A DNA stretch of 7,766 nucleotides from Pseudomonadota bacterium (lineage in GTDB: Bacteria > Pseudomonadota > Gammaproteobacteria > Halothiobacillales > Halothiobacillaceae). Under the pieces are notes generated by a model that was not told the DNA's origin, made no database searches, and was given only the letters and a program-made list of their open reading frames with translations. The position numbers and the translations under genes are program-made. Where the stretch lies: positions 1 through 7,766 of the forward strand of contig JAJYPA010000386.1 of NCBI GenBank assembly GCA_021795795.1, given 5' to 3'. Below, one piece after another: positions 1 through 7,766 of the stretch (its first letter is position 1; each line of letters starts with the position of its first letter).

Positions 1-7
1 AATCCAT
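1..7 (-). CDS. possible start of the next downstream gene (2 codons visible)
   Basis: An ATG at 7-5 overlaps the TGA stop of the upstream glycosyltransferase (9-7) in a TGATG arrangement, followed by a GAT codon and one more base before the edge. The same TGATG junction joins the 1858-2925 glycosyltransferase to its downstream reading frame, so a coupled next gene is plausible. No strong Shine-Dalgarno sequence is seen and the product cannot be known from two codons. Confidence 0.25.
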
Positions 8-1179
8 CAAGTCGAACATCCGCCCTGTTTACCACCCCGGAACGCCGCCCATTCCCGCTCCACGAAGGCCGTGAACTCCGCGCGGAAGCGCTCCGGGGCG
101 AAGCGCAGGGCATTTTCGCGGCAGGCTTCCGGGGTGATGGCCACACCCGCCCCCTCGAAGCGCGCCACGGCGGCGATGATGGCGGGGACGGATGATTCGT
201 AAAAGAACACCCCGGTGGGTGCGGCGGACGGCGTGGCACACTCCACCTCCGGCAGAGGAATGATGGTCTCCAGCGCCCCGCCCTTGCCAAAGGCGATGAC
301 GGGTGTGCCGCAGGCCTGAGCCTCCAGGGGGGCGATACCGAAGTCCTCCTCTGCAGCGAAAACAAAAGCGCGTGCCCGCTGCAGGTGGTCCCGCAGCGCC
401 TCTGCGCCCGCAAAGCCCAGCAATTGCACGTTCGGCCCCGCCTTGGCCTTGATCTTGGCGAAATCGGGCCCGTCCCCGATCACTACCAAGTGCTTGTCCG
501 GCATGGCGTTGAAAGCCTCGACGATCAGATCCATCTTCTTGTAGGGGACCATGCGCGAAGCGGTGACGTAAAAATCCTCCTTGTCCGTGCGCAGAGGAAA
601 ATCCGCCACATCCACCGGCGGATAGATGATGGTGGAATCCCGCCCATACACCTTGCGGATGCGCCGGGCGATGTACCGGGAAATGGCGATAAACCCGTCC
701 ACCCCGTTGGCCGTGCGCACATCCCAAAGGCGGATATAGTGCAGGATCAACTTCGCCATCCATCCCTTGATGCCCCGCTCCAGTCCCGCCTCCCGCAGAT
801 ACTGGTGCTGCAGATCCCAGGCATAGCGTATGGGGGAGTAGCACATGCACAAATGCAACTGATCGGGGCCGGTCAGCACCCCCTTGGCCACCGCATGGCT
901 GCTGCTGATCACCAGGTCATACGCCGAGAGATCGAACTGCTCCACGGCCAGCGGCATGAGCGGCAGATAAGCCCGGTATTTCTTTCGCGCTTTGGGCAAA
1001 CGCTGGATGAAAGAAGTGCTCACCGCTTTGTTGCGGATGCATGCGCGCTGACCGGCGGGCAGGAAATCCACCAGACTGAAGAGATCCGCGTCGGGATAAC
1101 AGGCAAGCATCTGCTCCAGCACCCGCTCCGCGCCGGCGTACACCACCAGCCAGTCGTGGACGATGGCTACTCGCCGCAT
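7..1179 (-). CDS. GT4-family glycosyltransferase (WbaZ-like), gtA
   Basis: Predicted cytoplasmic GT-B glycosyltransferase that transfers a sugar, possibly mannose-like, from a nucleotide donor to a growing lipid-linked glycan; donor and linkage cannot be read from sequence. The protein has 390 residues. The N-terminal domain opens with VAIVHDW and the AGAERV acceptor-side loop. SRMVPYKKMD (about 208-217) is the phosphate-binding region, followed by VVIGDGP. The donor-site motif EDFGIAPLE (278-286, E-x7-E) and ACGTPVIA complete a typical GT4 C-terminal domain. Length is normal for the family. The ATG at 1179-1177 is chosen because GGAGA lies 5 bases upstream and because the homologous fragment at 1858 starts at the same place (MRIAIVHDW). 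A GTG at 1206 would add nine unrelated residues inside hicA. The gene begins one base after the hicA stop and is probably co-transcribed with it. Its first ~150 bp exist as a second, divergent copy at 1704-1858. The family call is strong; the substrate is unknown. Confidence 0.93.
   Translation of the reverse strand: MRRVAIVHDWLVVYAGAERVLEQMLACYPDADLFSLVDFLPAGQRACIRNKAVSTSFIQRLPKARKKYRAYLPLMPLAVEQFDLSAYDLVISSSHAVAKGVLTGPDQLHLCMCYSPIRYAWDLQHQYLREAGLERGIKGWMAKLILHYIRLWDVRTANGVDGFIAISRYIARRIRKVYGRDSTIIYPPVDVADFPLRTDKEDFYVTASRMVPYKKMDLIVEAFNAMPDKHLVVIGDGPDFAKIKAKAGPNVQLLGFAGAEALRDHLQRARAFVFAAEEDFGIAPLEAQACGTPVIAFGKGGALETIIPLPEVECATPSAAPTGVFFYESSVPAIIAAVARFEGAGVAITPEACRENALRFAPERFRAEFTAFVEREWAAFRGGKQGGCST
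1106..1161. repeat. 56-bp perfect direct repeat, copy 1 (inside gtA)
   Basis: This stretch is identical base for base to 1788-1843, 682 bp away in the same orientation. It encodes the segment from DWLVVYAGAERV to about EQML of the glycosyltransferase N-terminus, in the same reading frame in both copies. Immediately outside it the copies differ: a hand alignment of 1031-1105 with 1713-1787 shows 13 mismatches in 75 positions, and the start-proximal side differs by one codon plus substitutions. Confidence 0.9.
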
Positions 1180-1180
1180 G

Positions 1181-1399
1181 TCATTCTCCATCGGAAATGG
1201 GGACACCGGACCCTATGGCATAGGGAATGCCGAGATCGTTGCAAATTTTTTTCGCCAGATGGTCATTAATCTCACTATGGCGGGGAACCGCGCTTCGCTT
1301 GTTCAACGAAGGGTTATGCCACCAGGAGTGGTTGCCACCTTCCCGTAATAATAAACAACCATGCGTCGTGAGATGCCGCAGCAGATCGCGACGCTTCAT
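1181..1399 (-). CDS. hicA: HicA-family toxin (mRNA interferase)
   Basis: HicA toxins are small double-stranded-RNA-binding-fold ribonucleases that cleave mRNA and stop translation until bound by HicB. This 72-residue product has the family pattern: an N-terminal KRRDLLRHL helix, HGCLLLREGGNHSWW with the presumed catalytic histidine at residue 24 in the G-x-H turn, SAVPRHSEIND, and the C-terminal KKICNDLGIP helix. Members of this short group usually end soon after DLGIP. Here about 13 further residues (YAIGSGVPISDGE) run on to the gtA start and look like read-through into adjoining DNA. The ATG overlaps the hicB stop as ATGA and has no good Shine-Dalgarno of its own, so translation is probably coupled to the antitoxin. 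The active-site histidine is intact, so an active toxin is inferred but not shown. Confidence 0.87.
   Translation of the reverse strand: MKRRDLLRHLTTHGCLLLREGGNHSWWHNPSLNKRSAVPRHSEINDHLAKKICNDLGIPYAIGSGVPISDGE
1185..1189 (-). promoter_or_regulatory. Shine-Dalgarno site of gtA inside hicA
   Basis: On the minus strand GGAGA is followed by five bases and then ATG at 1179. The site is made from the last codons of hicA (Asp-Gly-Glu-stop), so ribosomes finishing the toxin pass over it. It decides the ATG at 1179 over the GTG at 1206. Confidence 0.7.
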
Positions 1400-1608
1400 A
1401 CCGCGATACTGAGTTCTTCATAGTTCTTGCCTGCCGCATGCCGTGCATCACTCCGGTTCATTTCAATGGCCTCCAGGAGGGTGACGCGCAGAGACTGCAG
1501 GAGGTCATCACGGGTGCTCTCCTGGCCATTGACACCAGGAACCTCCTCGATCCAGCCGATCCACCAGGGACCGTCCTGCTTCACAATCGCCGTATATGTC
1601 TGCTTCAT
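1396..1608 (-). CDS. hicB: HicB-family antitoxin (short form)
   Basis: The predicted antitoxin binds HicA and blocks its active site. The 70-residue protein matches the short HicB group: a beta strand YTAIVKQDG, then WWIGWIEEVPGVNGQ and STRDDLLQSLRVTLLEAIE, the strand-turn-helix of the partly RNase H-like HicB fold. It ends soon after EELSIAV and has no helix-turn-helix or ribbon-helix-helix tail, unlike longer HicB proteins that repress their own promoter. The ATG is preceded by AGGTG at 1620-1616 with seven bases between. The gene lies upstream of hicA with a 4-base ATGA overlap, so antitoxin is made first. On its upstream side lies the truncated glycosyltransferase fragment, leaving about 73 bp for a promoter. 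Family assignment rests on recognisable motifs. Confidence 0.85.
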   Translation of the reverse strand: MKQTYTAIVKQDGPWWIGWIEEVPGVNGQESTRDDLLQSLRVTLLEAIEMNRSDARHAAGKNYEELSIAV

Positions 1609-1634
1609 CGATCAACACCTGCTCTCTGGCTTGT

Positions 1635-1673
1635 GTGAAATGCAAGCATACTCCTTCACCTCGTGAACTTCAC
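1635..1673. promoter_or_regulatory. cluster of TTCAC/GTGAA half-sites upstream of hicB
   Basis: Four alternating five-base elements occur: GTGAA at 1635-1639, TTCAC at 1655-1659, GTGAA at 1663-1667 and TTCAC at 1669-1673. The middle pair forms TTCAC-N3-GTGAA and the last pair GTGAA-C-TTCAC, both perfect inverted repeats. They lie 27-65 bp upstream of the hicB ATG, where an operator would be expected. A minus-strand TTCACG-17 bp-TGCATT could be a weak promoter overlapping it. Function is inferred from symmetry and position only. Confidence 0.4.
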
Positions 1674-1681
1674 TATGAAAC

Positions 1682-1858
1682 CTATGCCGACAGGCGGCGC
1701 AACCATGCCTTGTCGCGGATGAATGCACGCTGACTGGCGGGCAAGAAATCCACCAGGCTAAATAGTTCGGCCTCGGGGTAACAGGCGAGCATCTGCTCCA
1801 GCACCCGCTCCGCGCCGGCGTACACCACCAGCCAGTCGTGGACAATGGCGATGCGCAT
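1682..1858 (-). pseudogene. truncated 5' copy of the GT4 glycosyltransferase (58 codons)
   Basis: The reading frame begins MRIAIVHDWLVV and is collinear with the N-terminus of the complete glycosyltransferase at 7-1179 for about 50 residues, up to IRDKA. Differences are conservative, such as PEAE for PDAD and ASQRAF for AGQRAC. After that point (about 1704) the similarity stops; eight unrelated residues follow and then TAG at 1684-1682. Only the first beta-alpha-beta unit of the Rossmann fold remains, with no donor-binding domain, so it cannot be an active transferase. Its ATG overlaps the stop of the upstream glycosyltransferase as TGATG, as expected for the original position of the complete gene. 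There is no internal stop within the homologous part, which suggests that truncation is not old. A short peptide may still be translated by coupling. Confidence 0.85.
1788..1843. repeat. 56-bp perfect direct repeat, copy 2 (inside the truncated fragment)
   Basis: Identical to 1106-1161 and in the same orientation. Codon phase matches the other copy, so a crossover anywhere inside would join the fragment start to the body of the complete glycosyltransferase in frame and delete 682 bp carrying hicBA. Confidence 0.9.
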
Positions 1859-2925
1859 CAGTCTTCCGCAGCCTCCGCAAGCACCCGCCAGGTCTGTTCG
1901 GCGGTTTTATCCCAGTTGAACTGTGCGGCCCGCTCCAGACCTTTCTCCCGTAGCAGCGTGCACAAGGAAGCATCCTCGATCAGCCGATGAAGACCGTCCG
2001 CAATGGCTTCGATGTCATAGGGGTCCACTTGCACGGCCGCATCGCCCACCACCTCCGGCAACGAAGCACGGTTCCCCACCAGCGTAGGGGTACCTGATGC
2101 CATCGCCTCCAGGGGGGGAAGCCCGAAGCCTTCGTAGACGGAAAGATACGCGAAGGCCATCGCCCCGGCGTACAGGGAGGGGAGAAGCTCATCGGGGACA
2201 TGGCCGGTGAGAAAGACTCGCGGCGGCAGCGCCTCTAGCTCCGGGACATCCTGAAATACCAGACTTTTCCCTTTCGCCCCGCTCACGACCAGCCACACAT
2301 CTTCCGGCAAGCGGCGATGAATCACCTCCCAGGCGCGCAGCAGGCGGCCAAGATTCTTGCGCGGCTCCAGGGAGCCGAGGCTCAGCACGTAACGGTTAGT
2401 TGGCAGCCCCAGTTTTTGGATGGCGCTTTCCATCTGCGCCTTATCCTGTGGAACAAAACGTGCGTCCACCCCCAATGGGACCACAATAACTTTGTCATCA
2501 GCGACACCAGTGGTTTCCAAAAGACGTGACTTGGTGAATTCCGAGTCGGTAATCACCCGTGCGACCCGTCGCGCCAGCTTGGGCGTGAGAAATCCGTACC
2601 ACGCCGCAAAGCGCGGATTGAGCCATTCTGGATGGTCGATCGGTACTACATCGTGGATGGTCACCACTTGCCGGGAAACCGCTATGGGTCCGGTGTTGCT
2701 TGGACTCCAAAGCAGATTCCCCCGCGTCCGTAGAGGCAAGACCGCCTGCTCCCAGAGGTGGGCGCGGGCGCCGCTGAGAGGGTGCTGAGGAGCGATCTGG
2801 CGCGTATCATTCGCCAAATTCCCTATCCGCGTAAGCAACTCGGCAAGGTACCTCTGGACACCAGTGAGGTCGTATGTCAAAACACGAGTATTTACTAAGA
2901 AGGCCATACGATTTACATGTTCCAT
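1858..2925 (-). CDS. GT4-family glycosyltransferase, gtB
   Basis: Predicted cytoplasmic GT-B glycosyltransferase acting in the same glycan pathway, resembling the mannosyl- or rhamnosyl-type transferases of O-antigen clusters. The 355-residue protein shows an N-terminal acceptor domain with TGVQRYLAELL (21-31) and TIHDVVPIDHPEW (89-101), the SLGSLEPRKN donor-phosphate loop (182-191), and the donor motif EGFGLPPLE (265-273, E-x7-E) followed by MASGTPTLVGNRASLPEV, classic for the family. Length is normal. The start is uncertain. ATG at 2925 follows a TGA directly and has only GAGAAG about 11 bases upstream. ATG at 2907 (349 residues, MAFLVNTRVL) lies five bases after the stop of a 14-codon frame. 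The gene is GC-rich, unlike the polymerase gene before it. Its TGA overlaps the ATG of the truncated glycosyltransferase fragment. Confidence 0.92.
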   Translation of the reverse strand: MEHVNRMAFLVNTRVLTYDLTGVQRYLAELLTRIGNLANDTRQIAPQHPLSGARAHLWEQAVLPLRTRGNLLWSPSNTGPIAVSRQVVTIHDVVPIDHPEWLNPRFAAWYGFLTPKLARRVARVITDSEFTKSRLLETTGVADDKVIVVPLGVDARFVPQDKAQMESAIQKLGLPTNRYVLSLGSLEPRKNLGRLLRAWEVIHRRLPEDVWLVVSGAKGKSLVFQDVPELEALPPRVFLTGHVPDELLPSLYAGAMAFAYLSVYEGFGLPPLEAMASGTPTLVGNRASLPEVVGDAAVQVDPYDIEAIADGLHRLIEDASLCTLLREKGLERAAQFNWDKTAEQTWRVLAEAAED

Positions 2926-5635: not shown

Positions 5636-6664
5636 CTAGAATTGAGCGTTACGCCGGACCATTCTTAGCAACCTCAGTATATCTTTTGGAATAAATATTT
5701 TTGCAAGGCCAAAAACTGCAAAGAATATACCATACGGTGCAGAATATAATTTATGATATTTAATATAATAGGTGGCAAGAGACATTCTAGACGCGCCCGC
5801 ATCTGCTGACCTCTGGATAAGGCCATGGATTAAATTGGCGGTGAATCGTCTGCGCAAGCTTATTATTAATCGCGCGGTAACAAAATCTGACTGATTCATG
5901 AATTGTTTTGCACACACATCGATTAGCGCGGAAGCATTGTCAATCCACTCATCAATTCTAGCCCGCGATGTAACACTGCCGATGTGCAACCTGTAGTTAG
6001 ATAAACAATCACCAATATAAACTGCGATGCCGCGGTTTATGACGATGCGCATCCAAATGTTTGCGTCGGCAGCCAAAGCGAAATTCTTTTCGTCAAAACC
6101 ACCATATTTTATTAAGTCATCTTTTCTGATCAAAGTAGAGCAAGGATAAACAGAGCGCTTTCCTCTTAAAAACTCTGGAATAAAAGAAGATGCACATTCT
6201 ACGAAGCTATCTGGTTTTCTATTTTCAATTACATTATTTCCTTCCCTGATAACCCGAGTACCGCAATAGACCATTCCAATCTTACATGCATCCAAACCAG
6301 AGTTCTGGCATTGAAAACCAATAGCCATTTTTTCTATGGCGGTTGGGTCCAGAAAATCGTCGTCAGAAAGGAGAATAAAAAATTCACCACTCGCCTTTTT
6401 CAGACAGGCATTCCAATTCCCTACCATACCCAGGTTGGTTTCCTGTTGAATGATAATTAAGCGATCATCATTGTGCTTTCCCAAAAGCTGCAACGTATCA
6501 TCTGTTGAGGCATTATCTGAAACAATTACCTCAATGTTTTTATAGGTTTGCGCAAGAGCGCTATCCAGTGCTTTGGTTAAAAATACCGCCCGATTATAGG
6601 TTGGTATTGCAATGGTTACTTTGGGCTGTTCCGTGATATTCAGCCCTTCTCTATCCACGATCAT
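5636..6664 (-). CDS. GT2-family glycosyltransferase
   Basis: Predicted inverting GT-A glycosyltransferase on the cytoplasmic side of the membrane, adding one sugar of the repeat unit. From the chosen start it has 342 residues. VTIAIPTYNRA (16-26) opens the nucleotide-binding fold. IEVIVSDNASTDDT (44-57) holds the uridine-binding aspartate region. NLGMVGNWNACLKKASGEFF (77-96) leads to the metal-binding DDD at 101-103 (LLSDDDFLD). The C-terminal half has YPCSTLIRKDDLIKYGGFDE and LAADANIWMRI, where the second catalytic acid is expected. A hydrophobic stretch near the end (YGIFFAVFGLAKIFI) may attach it to the membrane. The open frame extends back to 6769, but the extra 35 residues are polar, low in family features and overlap the flippase. 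ATG 6664 forms an ATGA overlap with the flippase stop, so it is preferred. Confidence 0.92.
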   Translation of the reverse strand: MIVDREGLNITEQPKVTIAIPTYNRAVFLTKALDSALAQTYKNIEVIVSDNASTDDTLQLLGKHNDDRLIIIQQETNLGMVGNWNACLKKASGEFFILLSDDDFLDPTAIEKMAIGFQCQNSGLDACKIGMVYCGTRVIREGNNVIENRKPDSFVECASSFIPEFLRGKRSVYPCSTLIRKDDLIKYGGFDEKNFALAADANIWMRIVINRGIAVYIGDCLSNYRLHIGSVTSRARIDEWIDNASALIDVCAKQFMNQSDFVTARLIISLRRRFTANLIHGLIQRSADAGASRMSLATYYIKYHKLYSAPYGIFFAVFGLAKIFIPKDILRLLRMVRRNAQF

Positions 6665-7766
6665 AACGCTTTTCTCATGTTGATGATCATCCGAAGCATT
6701 GTCTGTCGCTCGCTGGCTGTTGTCAGTAGAGCTAGCGCAGTTAGTGCGGTTGAAGGGATTGTGCAACACCCCGAAATTAATAAACTTACCATGTCACCGT
6801 ATTTGGCAGTAAGGTATCTTAAAACCACATTTATTCCTATTGACACCATGATCAACACAAATATAGGAAGAATGACAGTCGCGAAGTATCTCAAAAATGG
6901 TATATTGAACAGAGTAAGCGTTACATAAGGCGCATACCAGTTATTAGTCAGCATTTGCGCAATCATTGTACCAAGTGCCACACCCCATAGACCCAAGCGT
7001 TGTGCGAGGATAACAGAGATGATTATATTCAAGCCCCCCGCAATCAATGCTGCCCAGGCAAAAGCAATCTTCCCTGTTGCCATCGTCCCGGTCGCGAGTA
7101 TGACGTGATGAACTTCCAGCACAGTCATGGTGAGCAACGTCCATAGCACTGGGAAACCCGCAAAATGCCCTAGGCCGAGCCACAGATTAACGATTTTATC
7201 CCCAAATGTGGCGATAAACGCTGAAAGAATCACCAAGAATCCCATGCTATAGCGCACGTTGCGTAACAGAAGAATCTTGAAGGTATCCATGTCTGCGGCA
7301 GCGTATGATTTCGATAGAAACGGCGAAGAGCTGCTCACAATCATCAAAGACAAGGTCATCAATACTGTTACAATCTTTGCAACGGCGACATAGGATGGAA
7401 TAGCGGGTGTACCGATTACTGCGGCGATAACGACATTGTCGGTCTGCAGGATAAGGATGGCTCCGAAACCCATAGCTGCCCACTTCAGGCTTGGCAGAGC
7501 GATTTTCCTCGCTACTGCCATGCTGATCACACCCTTTGATCCATGAAGATACGGGTAACGGGCGTGCAAAATACGCCGCGCGATCAACATAGTGGCCAGC
7601 CCTTGAACAGACCATATAACGGCTAGCCCGACAATCCCGAATCCGAGTTTAAGAAAAAGTACCATTATGGCGAGGCCGACCAATAGCGTCAGGGATCGGA
7701 TAAGACGCTCAGTGGCGATATTTCCTAAACCATAAAGTGCAGCAAAGATAGGCCCCCCAAGGAGGT
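6661..7766 (-). CDS. wzx: Wzx-like polysaccharide flippase, N-terminus cut by the window edge
   Basis: Predicted inner-membrane transporter of the MOP/polysaccharide-transport superfamily that flips lipid-linked repeat units to the periplasm. 367 residues are visible and the frame stays open to the right edge, so the true start lies outside. A TTG at 7683 is just an internal Leu codon, because the upstream residues (IFAALYGLGNIATERLIRSL) fit the family. Visible parts include ILQTDNVVIAAVIGTPAIPSYVAVAKI, the conserved Q-x-D-N segment with a following Y-x-x-A/V, SSSSPFLSKSYAA, and GLWGVALGTMIAQMLTNNWY near the C-terminus, among roughly nine to ten hydrophobic helices. It ends SERQTMLRMIINMRKAL, and its TGA overlaps the GT2 start, indicating coupled translation. 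It is less AT-rich than wzy. Substrate specificity cannot be read. Confidence 0.88.
   Translation of the reverse strand, partial: LLGGPIFAALYGLGNIATERLIRSLTLLVGLAIMVLFLKLGFGIVGLAVIWSVQGLATMLIARRILHARYPYLHGSKGVISMAVARKIALPSLKWAAMGFGAILILQTDNVVIAAVIGTPAIPSYVAVAKIVTVLMTLSLMIVSSSSPFLSKSYAAADMDTFKILLLRNVRYSMGFLVILSAFIATFGDKIVNLWLGLGHFAGFPVLWTLLTMTVLEVHHVILATGTMATGKIAFAWAALIAGGLNIIISVILAQRLGLWGVALGTMIAQMLTNNWYAPYVTLTLFNIPFLRYFATVILPIFVLIMVSIGINVVLRYLTAKYGDMVSLLISGCCTIPSTALTALALLTTASERQTMLRMIINMRKAL

Follow-up and report, generated by a model that had tools for sequence, protein, structure and literature searches.

Organization of the locus

The stretch of DNA considered here, called the window throughout, comprises the 7,766 nucleotides (nt) of contig JAJYPA010000386.1 (GenBank assembly GCA_021795795.1), from a gammaproteobacterium of the family Halothiobacillaceae. 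It is filled by an Acidithiobacillus-like polysaccharide gene cluster, the genes of which lie on the minus strand. Within this cluster, a small gene pair of the HicBA toxin-antitoxin (TA) type is located between two copies of the 5' end of one glycosyltransferase gene, gtA: a short copy, the stub, which follows the glycosyltransferase gene gtB, and the start of the complete gene. The features of this region are as follows.

1858..2925, minus strand: gtB, a GT4 glycosyltransferase gene
1682..1858, minus strand: gtA 5' stub, an open reading frame (ORF) of 58 codons, the first 51 gtA-like; its start overlaps the gtB stop
1707..1856, minus strand: repeat copy 1 (stub), matching copy 2 without gaps
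1655..1673, minus strand: half-sites GTGAA-G-TTCAC-GAG-GTGAA, a candidate operator; a lead only, from a shuffle test
1609..1657, minus strand: leader common to other hicBA copies, from alignment with the N-terminal extensions of the HicB relatives P0121, P0123 and P0124
1396..1608, minus strand: hicB antitoxin gene, 70 amino acids (aa), no DNA-binding domain seen; assigned by relatives and predicted fold
1181..1399, minus strand: hicA toxin gene, 72 aa, His24 in GGNHSWW, PF07927
1181..1222, minus strand: putative joint region, in which sequence running into gtA stands in place of the usual hicA end
1025..1174, minus strand: repeat copy 2, the 5' end of the complete gtA, 132/150 nt identical to copy 1
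7..1179, minus strand: gtA, complete GT4 glycosyltransferase gene, 390 aa, with an MRRVAIVHDW-type start; Pfam Glycos_transf_1

The stop of gtB and the start of the stub overlap as TGATG. The stub stop is followed after 73 nt by the hicB start, hicB and hicA overlap by 4 nt, and the gtA ATG lies 1 nt beyond the hicA stop. The GC content of hicBA is 52-56%, compared with 61-63% for gtA and the body of gtB. Protein relatives of gtA are at most 95% identical, the best named ones being from Acidithiobacillus. Read along the minus strand, the whole cluster consists of a flippase-like gene (NCBIfam WZX_like, with a score under the cut-off), the two glycosyltransferase genes gtD and gtC, a Wzy_C-like gene (just under the Pfam cut-off), gtB, the stub, hicB, hicA and gtA.

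A repeated gene end with two alleles

The direct repeat (1025-1174 and 1707-1856) matches without gaps at 88% of its positions, with hicB and hicA intact between the copies, and its offset is exactly 682 nt, in register with the gtA frame. When positions 1560-1860 and its own neighbourhood were left out, the next-best ungapped placement of the 150-mer in the window reached 61/150. Coincidence was rejected as an explanation, as was a target-site duplication, which would be short, whereas this repeat spans 150 nt of a gene end and its copies have diverged by 12%. The stub as part of a separate gene family was rejected as well: the 19 examined among 40 short stub-like matches resemble gtA N-termini that were truncated or frameshifted and that continue into different tails. 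In these respects the preliminary description, which had reported a repeat of the first ~150 bp of gtA at the gtB stop with a hicBA pair between the copies, and had made its account depend on the fragment not being a separate gene family, was accurate.

Judged by their codons, stub and gtA are different alleles, with 18 of 50 codons differing and 12 of these 18 differences silent. The stub begins with MRIAI, as do the gtA genes at loci L115, L116 and L117; the window's gtA begins with MRRVAI, like the protein relatives P0001-P0003, and the gene at L083 with MRRIAI. Over its first 21 nt, gtA agrees with the MRR-type gene of L083 at 19/21 positions, versus 11/18 with L115, and over the whole gene it is 92.4% identical to the gene of genome G004 (L082/L115, the closest among the genomes searched) and 86.8% identical to L083. 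Within nt 22-81 the stub and gtA agree at 59/60 positions, versus 73/94 outside this block (Fisher p 2e-4). The same block was compared in seven other pairs; a weaker excess was seen for gtA with L117 (p 0.005) and for the stub with L117 (p 0.03), and none in the remaining five.

The end of gtB appears to go together with the stub. The last ~56 nt of gtB and the TGATG are near-identical in L113, L114, L116 and L117, which argues that the stub belongs with gtB. Window positions 1795-2799 are 94.5% identical to L114 and 87.3% identical to L113, and gtB is, on this DNA evidence, a chimera, its match to the two loci extending only up to 2799. The remaining ~42 codons at the 5' end of gtB (2799-2925) and the upstream genes are unlike L113 and L114 and richer in AT (GC 36-48% vs 61%).

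The HicBA module and its borders

The hicA product matches the Pfam family HicA_toxin (PF07927) above the cut-off (E 2.5e-8), and its histidine, His24 in GGNHSWW, is aligned with the HS of relatives. This residue is important for activity in SmHicA and BpsHicA (PMC11594946, excerpt). HicB matched neither Pfam nor NCBIfam, and HicA had no match in NCBIfam; HicB has 1594 relatives at E 0.001, of which P0121-P0125 are 91-97% identical. A structural model of HicB (pLDDT 94.5) consists of three strands followed by a long helix, with no further domain, and its ten best Foldseek matches include five HicB chains of B. pseudomallei, one E. coli HicB3 and one antitoxin of a putative TA system. The matches to crystal structures had probabilities of 0.92-1.00, but their E values were weak (0.01-0.44 in the first ten). 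As modelled, HicB thus has a partial RNase H fold and is encoded beside hicA. A sequence search of the PDB with HicB returned only TTHA1013 (E 0.3), and no PADLOC model was matched by hicB or hicA at E 0.01. The antitoxin gene comes first, the two genes overlap by a few nucleotides, and HicB (70 aa) without a DNA-binding domain and HicA (72 aa) have the sizes of class 2 hicBA. These data suggest that hicBA is probably a complete, working small TA module.

Both borders of the module were compared with its relatives. Matches to hicB were found in 20 of 369 genomes of a class-wide draw (the best 74% identical over residues 1-62 and 71% over the full length), and these were used for the leader and hicA-end comparisons; one hicBA contig found in IMG/VR with hicB at 60% (L118) was used for the latter only. 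On the left, the N-terminal extensions of P0121, P0123 and P0124, translated from upstream DNA, align with window positions ~1613-1657 over 11-15 residues. None of 1000 shuffles reached the score of any of the three alignments, P0121 passing narrowly (40 vs 39 for the best shuffle); because the three are closely related, the tests are not independent. The far part of these extensions does not align with the window. Since other hicBA copies have this leader too, it seems to have come in together with the module. In the hicB leader, the half-sites at 1655-1673 were reached in 0/20000 mononucleotide shuffles, the motif having been picked after the fact; they are possibly operator-like, although HicB lacks a DNA-binding domain. 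A scan of 1000-2000 returned no promoter and no terminator, with no sigma-70-type promoter match near the half-sites, and the folding of the leader is unremarkable (z -0.81).

On the right, the module looks irregular. A hicA match was present at 21 of the 26 loci compared that have a relative of hicB, and 19 of these frames measure 60-64 aa, with one of 44 and one of 79. Homology of hicA ends at residue 58-60 in two family loci, and the last ~13 codons of the window's hicA are unlike the relatives and continue up to gtA. The usual hicA end appears to have been replaced, which is why the gene exceeds its relatives in length.

gtA loci in related genomes

The queries gtA, hicB, hicA, gtB and the DNA of the stub-gtB joint were searched against 29 genomes from the family. 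Near-full-length gtA was found at 13 loci in 13 genomes, none of which had hicBA beside the full-length gene. At E 0.001, hicBA occurred in 2/29 genomes (G001 and G003), in each case away from the gtA contig; the G003 hicBA contig is just 4,967 nt long. Among the matches listed, which were ranked by E value, close gtB relatives occur only in G008 (87%) and G009 (90%), and the next-best matches reach at most 41%, apart from remnants in G018. The joint of gtB end, TGATG and intact gtA without hicBA was seen at two loci, L116 and L117, where about the last 30-40 codons of gtB are left.

Other cargo occupies the same site. At L113 and L114 (genomes G008 and G009), gtB and TGATG are followed by a 22-codon gtA scar, a GT2 gene and a gtA 3' remnant (residues 267-389 in L113, 357-386 in L114). 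Over a common stretch of 66 nt, the G009 scar matches the stub at 61 positions and the window's gtA at 57. The stop of the 22-codon scar (L113 4504-4574, L114 5033-5103) overlaps the GT2 start as TAATG, and the scar could, from this overlap, serve as a relay for translation from gtB to the GT2 gene. G009 and G004 are 98.5% identical across 3.9 kb to the right, and G004 has an intact gtA behind another gene; the shared right side with differing gtA argues that these are alternative forms of one site.

At L188 (G021; 6331-7036), a gtA scar precedes a DUF29 gene and an intact gtA that is 65% identical to the window's. The scar, overlapped by an upstream GDP-mannose-dehydratase gene through GTGA, is read as codons 1-15 joined to ~57-62, and it matches its own gtA at 36/38 nt (E 2e-13). 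To judge from this layout, L188 is a separate case of the window's plan with other cargo. DUF29 was considered as a toxin family; the literature matches concern DUF294 only, and no claim is made. At L117, a weak gtA trace of 12 codons lies ~130-160 nt upstream of gtA (26/32 nt, E 9e-5; tblastn E 0.002) and abuts a gtB 3' remnant. In the same locus (6507-8218), a gtB-like 5' remnant of ~90 codons (54% identical) and this 3' remnant of ~30-43 codons flank another glycosyltransferase gene. Overall, the stub scan was positive at 2 of the 13 intact-gtA loci (L188 and L117), and the negative L179 offered only 141 nt for searching. In a further set of loci, which contains one Acidithiobacillus locus (L020), no stub was found within 2.5 kb in 78 loci (2 of 80 were skipped for short flanks; tblastn E 0.001). 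At this stricter cut-off L117 would be missed too and only L188 of the 13 counted, which lowers the contrast with other bacteria.

TA pairs to the right of gtA

An eye scan found a TA pair starting at most 1.8 kb to the right of gtA or its 3' remnant at 5 of 15 loci, representing four distinct flanks; none was seen by eye at the other 10, where the listing of longest non-overlapping frames can hide short pairs. That listing hid the pairs of L113 and L114, which are visible in other frame listings. The right flanks carry a Phd/YefM-like gene with PIN (L113), RHH_6 with PIN_3 (common to L114 and L115), an MNT-HEPN pair followed by a FitA-like gene with PIN and a second MNT-HEPN copy (L116), and Phd/YefM with PIN (L117). 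Pfam searches of ten ORFs from four of these loci (L115 not separately) agreed, with the L113 antitoxin just below the cut-off (27.6 vs 29.8 bits). In L116, the MNT-HEPN stretches on either side of the FitA/PIN pair (10159-11068 and 11974-12900) are 97% identical; the Pfam search covered the first copy. For the four of five distinct right flanks with a TA pair, a binomial estimate gave 7e-7 at 29 TA per 2.98 Mb and 1.3e-5 at 60, and this serves as a pointer only, being made after the fact from an eye scan and ignoring the clustering of TA genes in islands. The L116 FitA/PIN pair lies 1.3 kb to the right of a gtA relative, and the 12-13 nt cores of published primers (PMC4226512, excerpt) match at the starts of its two genes (11174 and 11464); by these matches, it is very probably TA 27 of ICEAfe1. 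Of 8 loci scanned for tRNA genes, 3 have a tRNA-Lys (ttt) gene immediately to the right of gtA or of the gtA remnant (L113 5989-6064, L114 6278-6353, L115 5450-5525). tRNA genes are common attachment sites of islands.

Origin of the arrangement

The relatives with an uninterrupted joint indicate that the resident order was gtB-TGATG-gtA. Incoming DNA may have carried hicBA just upstream of a gtA copy, which would have served as the homology anchor at one end; at the opposite end, a join inside the resident gtA at codon 51, without known homology, would have left the stub. Such a pattern would be that of homology-facilitated illegitimate recombination. Homology is supplied by gtA. None to the sequences compared was found at the left joint (stub to hicB leader, ~1704) or at the hicA end; at least one joint would therefore be illegitimate, or the donor was already rearranged. 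The HicA toxin would be an RNase and HicB its blocker, with gtA presumably read right behind hicA. As the 682-nt offset keeps the gtA frame in register, recombination between the repeats would delete hicBA and restore the gtB-TGATG-gtA joint. After such a deletion, no new antitoxin would be made to neutralize the remaining toxin. The module would therefore tend to secure its own retention and, as a side effect, that of this form of the locus.

We judge it somewhat more likely than not that hicBA arrived as cargo ahead of a second gtA allele, and that it did so at a border of an Acidithiobacillus polysaccharide locus where recombination has recurred. The preliminary description had proposed that hicBA entered with a donor gtA allele by homologous recombination and left the resident 5' end as a stump. 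The insertion of a module and the stump, still in place behind gtB, are supported, and the uninterrupted joint it expected in relatives was seen at L116 and L117; nor is the order fragment-hicBA-gtA a fixed arrangement of the family. The donor allele stands in part, in that the two alleles differ. Plain homologous recombination, as proposed there, finds no support in the joints described above.

Several observations weigh against the cargo reading. The predicted donor form, hicBA directly ahead of an unrepeated gtA, was not found in any strain. The foreign signature in gtA is limited to the first 21 nt; the body is not donor-like and is nearest to G004. The 59/60 block, no more than a hint, would be explained equally well by a later exchange between the two copies or by a single crossover at that place. 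Parental sequence is lacking for ~1658-1706 and 1180-1222, making the breakpoints untraceable, and the window ends 6 nt past gtA. L188 is the only clear second case among the 13 intact-gtA loci, and toxin activity, expression and addiction of HicBA are predictions. A wider scheme, which we regard as rather unlikely in its entirety, would make the gtA 5' end a recurrent docking site in Acidithiobacillus polysaccharide loci, at which units of cargo plus gtA enter with gtA as a built-in anchor and stubs are left as a record. The cargo could be a glycosyltransferase gene, a DUF29 gene or a TA pair, a repeat-flanked TA pair would punish its own precise excision and so lock the glycan form, and a stub could act as a relay frame (TAATG in L113/L114).

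The main rival to the cargo reading is a single crossover of a small non-replicating circle, carrying a gtA 5' end and hicBA, inside gtA and probably in the 60-nt block. Such an event, which we consider improbable, would yield a stub with the resident start, hicBA and a gtA with its first codons from the circle. It explains the short foreign start of gtA, G004-like thereafter, at least as simply as the cargo reading does; the near-identical block between the copies falls where the crossover is placed, and an insertion of this kind would produce the observed arrangement of repeats. However, hicBA would first have had to become joined to a gtA 5' end in an earlier event, and no candidate circle was found: 72,556 plasmid records had no match for the window (megablast) or hicB (tblastn), and 50,697 phage records none for hicB (tblastn). 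We give a smaller probability again to a local tandem duplication of gtB-gtA, followed by insertion of hicBA and by decay of the first gtA copy until only the stub was left. The presence of two versions of a single gene in direct orientation agrees with this, and the predominance of synonymous changes among the differing codons fits long co-existence or an old split of alleles; duplication by unequal exchange during transformation is a further route (PMC3784515, excerpt). However, the copies are 12% apart while hicBA is intact, the stub start is of the gtB-linked MRI type and gtA starts with MRR like another lineage, and no further gtA or gtB remnant was noticed in the 98 nt between the gtA-like stub and hicB.

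A self-moving element with its own ends could account for the existence of hicB relatives of 91-97% identity and for the N-terminal extensions that do not align in their far part, which suggests other surroundings. We regard it as very improbable. In agreement with the preliminary description, neither the recombinase nor the bounding inverted repeats that define transposons and integrative elements were found within the window: a Pfam scan of nine window proteins detected no transposase or integrase, and none of the 25 longest of 28 inverted-repeat pairs bounds the module (the pair 1278-1297 / 2062-2081, matching at 90% of 20 nt, has one arm in hicA and the other in gtB). An element larger than the window would escape these scans. 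Both joints, moreover, look irregular, with hicA's own end lost. As to function, and compatible with any of these origins, hicBA may be a passive passenger or a phage-defence module at a recombination-prone border, with no role in holding the locus, a plausible reading to which we give somewhat less than an even chance. Other kinds of TA pair to the right of gtA in related loci argue that the border collects them, and an anti-phage role has been proposed from hicA contexts (PMC10865869, excerpt). Against it, hicB and hicA match no PADLOC defence model, and in the single sequence available the module has stayed intact although its flanking repeats should ease loss.

Significance and comparison with known systems

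The window offers a concrete case of a glycan locus gaining a TA pair without a visible transposase, at a gene end that is involved in several related genomes, and it places a class 2 hicBA inside an apparent host operon. The geometry of the 682-nt repeat makes it directly testable whether chromosomal TA pairs hold neighbouring DNA, since PCR can count the clean joint that hicBA loss would leave. In the literature searched, in which most subscription papers were outside the scope, no description was found of hicBA between gtA copies or of gtA scars; the recurrent use of one gene's 5' end is the part not found described.

Class 2 hicBA resembles the window's module in its antitoxin-first order, overlapping genes, HicB of 60-90 aa without a DNA-binding domain and HicA of 60-85 aa (PMC10865869, excerpt). 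The window differs in placing the module between two copies of a gene end and in the last ~13 codons of HicA, which are unlike relatives. As of 2024, the toxins and antitoxins of classes 1 and 2 still awaited experimental tests, and the regulation of such operons without a DNA-binding antitoxin was left open (PMC10865869, excerpt).

TA pairs at glycan loci have precedents. TA 27 (AFE_1361/AFE_1362, StbC/VapC-3) of ICEAfe1 in A. ferrooxidans is likewise a type II pair bordering an Acidithiobacillus polysaccharide cluster; it differs in its VapC/FitB PIN type, its position downstream of gtA and the lack of a gtA stub around it. VapC-3 arrested the growth of E. coli, and TA 27-29 lie near exopolysaccharide genes (PMC4226512, excerpt), so TA pairs near such a cluster were already known; the main text of that paper mentions neither hicA nor hicB. 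The ntaAB pair lies inside the pneumococcal cps locus and was proposed to help the cluster persist (PMC3541774, excerpt). It differs in its Fic/DOC toxin and its non-typable locus with aliB genes, and a split glycosyltransferase is not described in that excerpt.

For the scar itself, the closest parallel is the immunity-gene arrays of the Vibrio cholerae type VI secretion system (T6SS), attributed to one-sided homologous plus illegitimate recombination (PMC5361080, excerpt). In these, too, one side is a conserved anchor, the opposite joint is illegitimate and leftovers of the earlier module persist, but their anchor is upstream, their leftovers are downstream and their cargo is effector-immunity genes, not a TA pair in a glycan operon. 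As far as these excerpted sources go, the arrangement in the window is a combination of known ingredients: a class 2 hicBA, the scars of one-sided recombination and a TA pair at a glycan locus, the last with precedents in the pneumococcal and ICEAfe1 systems (PMC3541774, PMC4226512).

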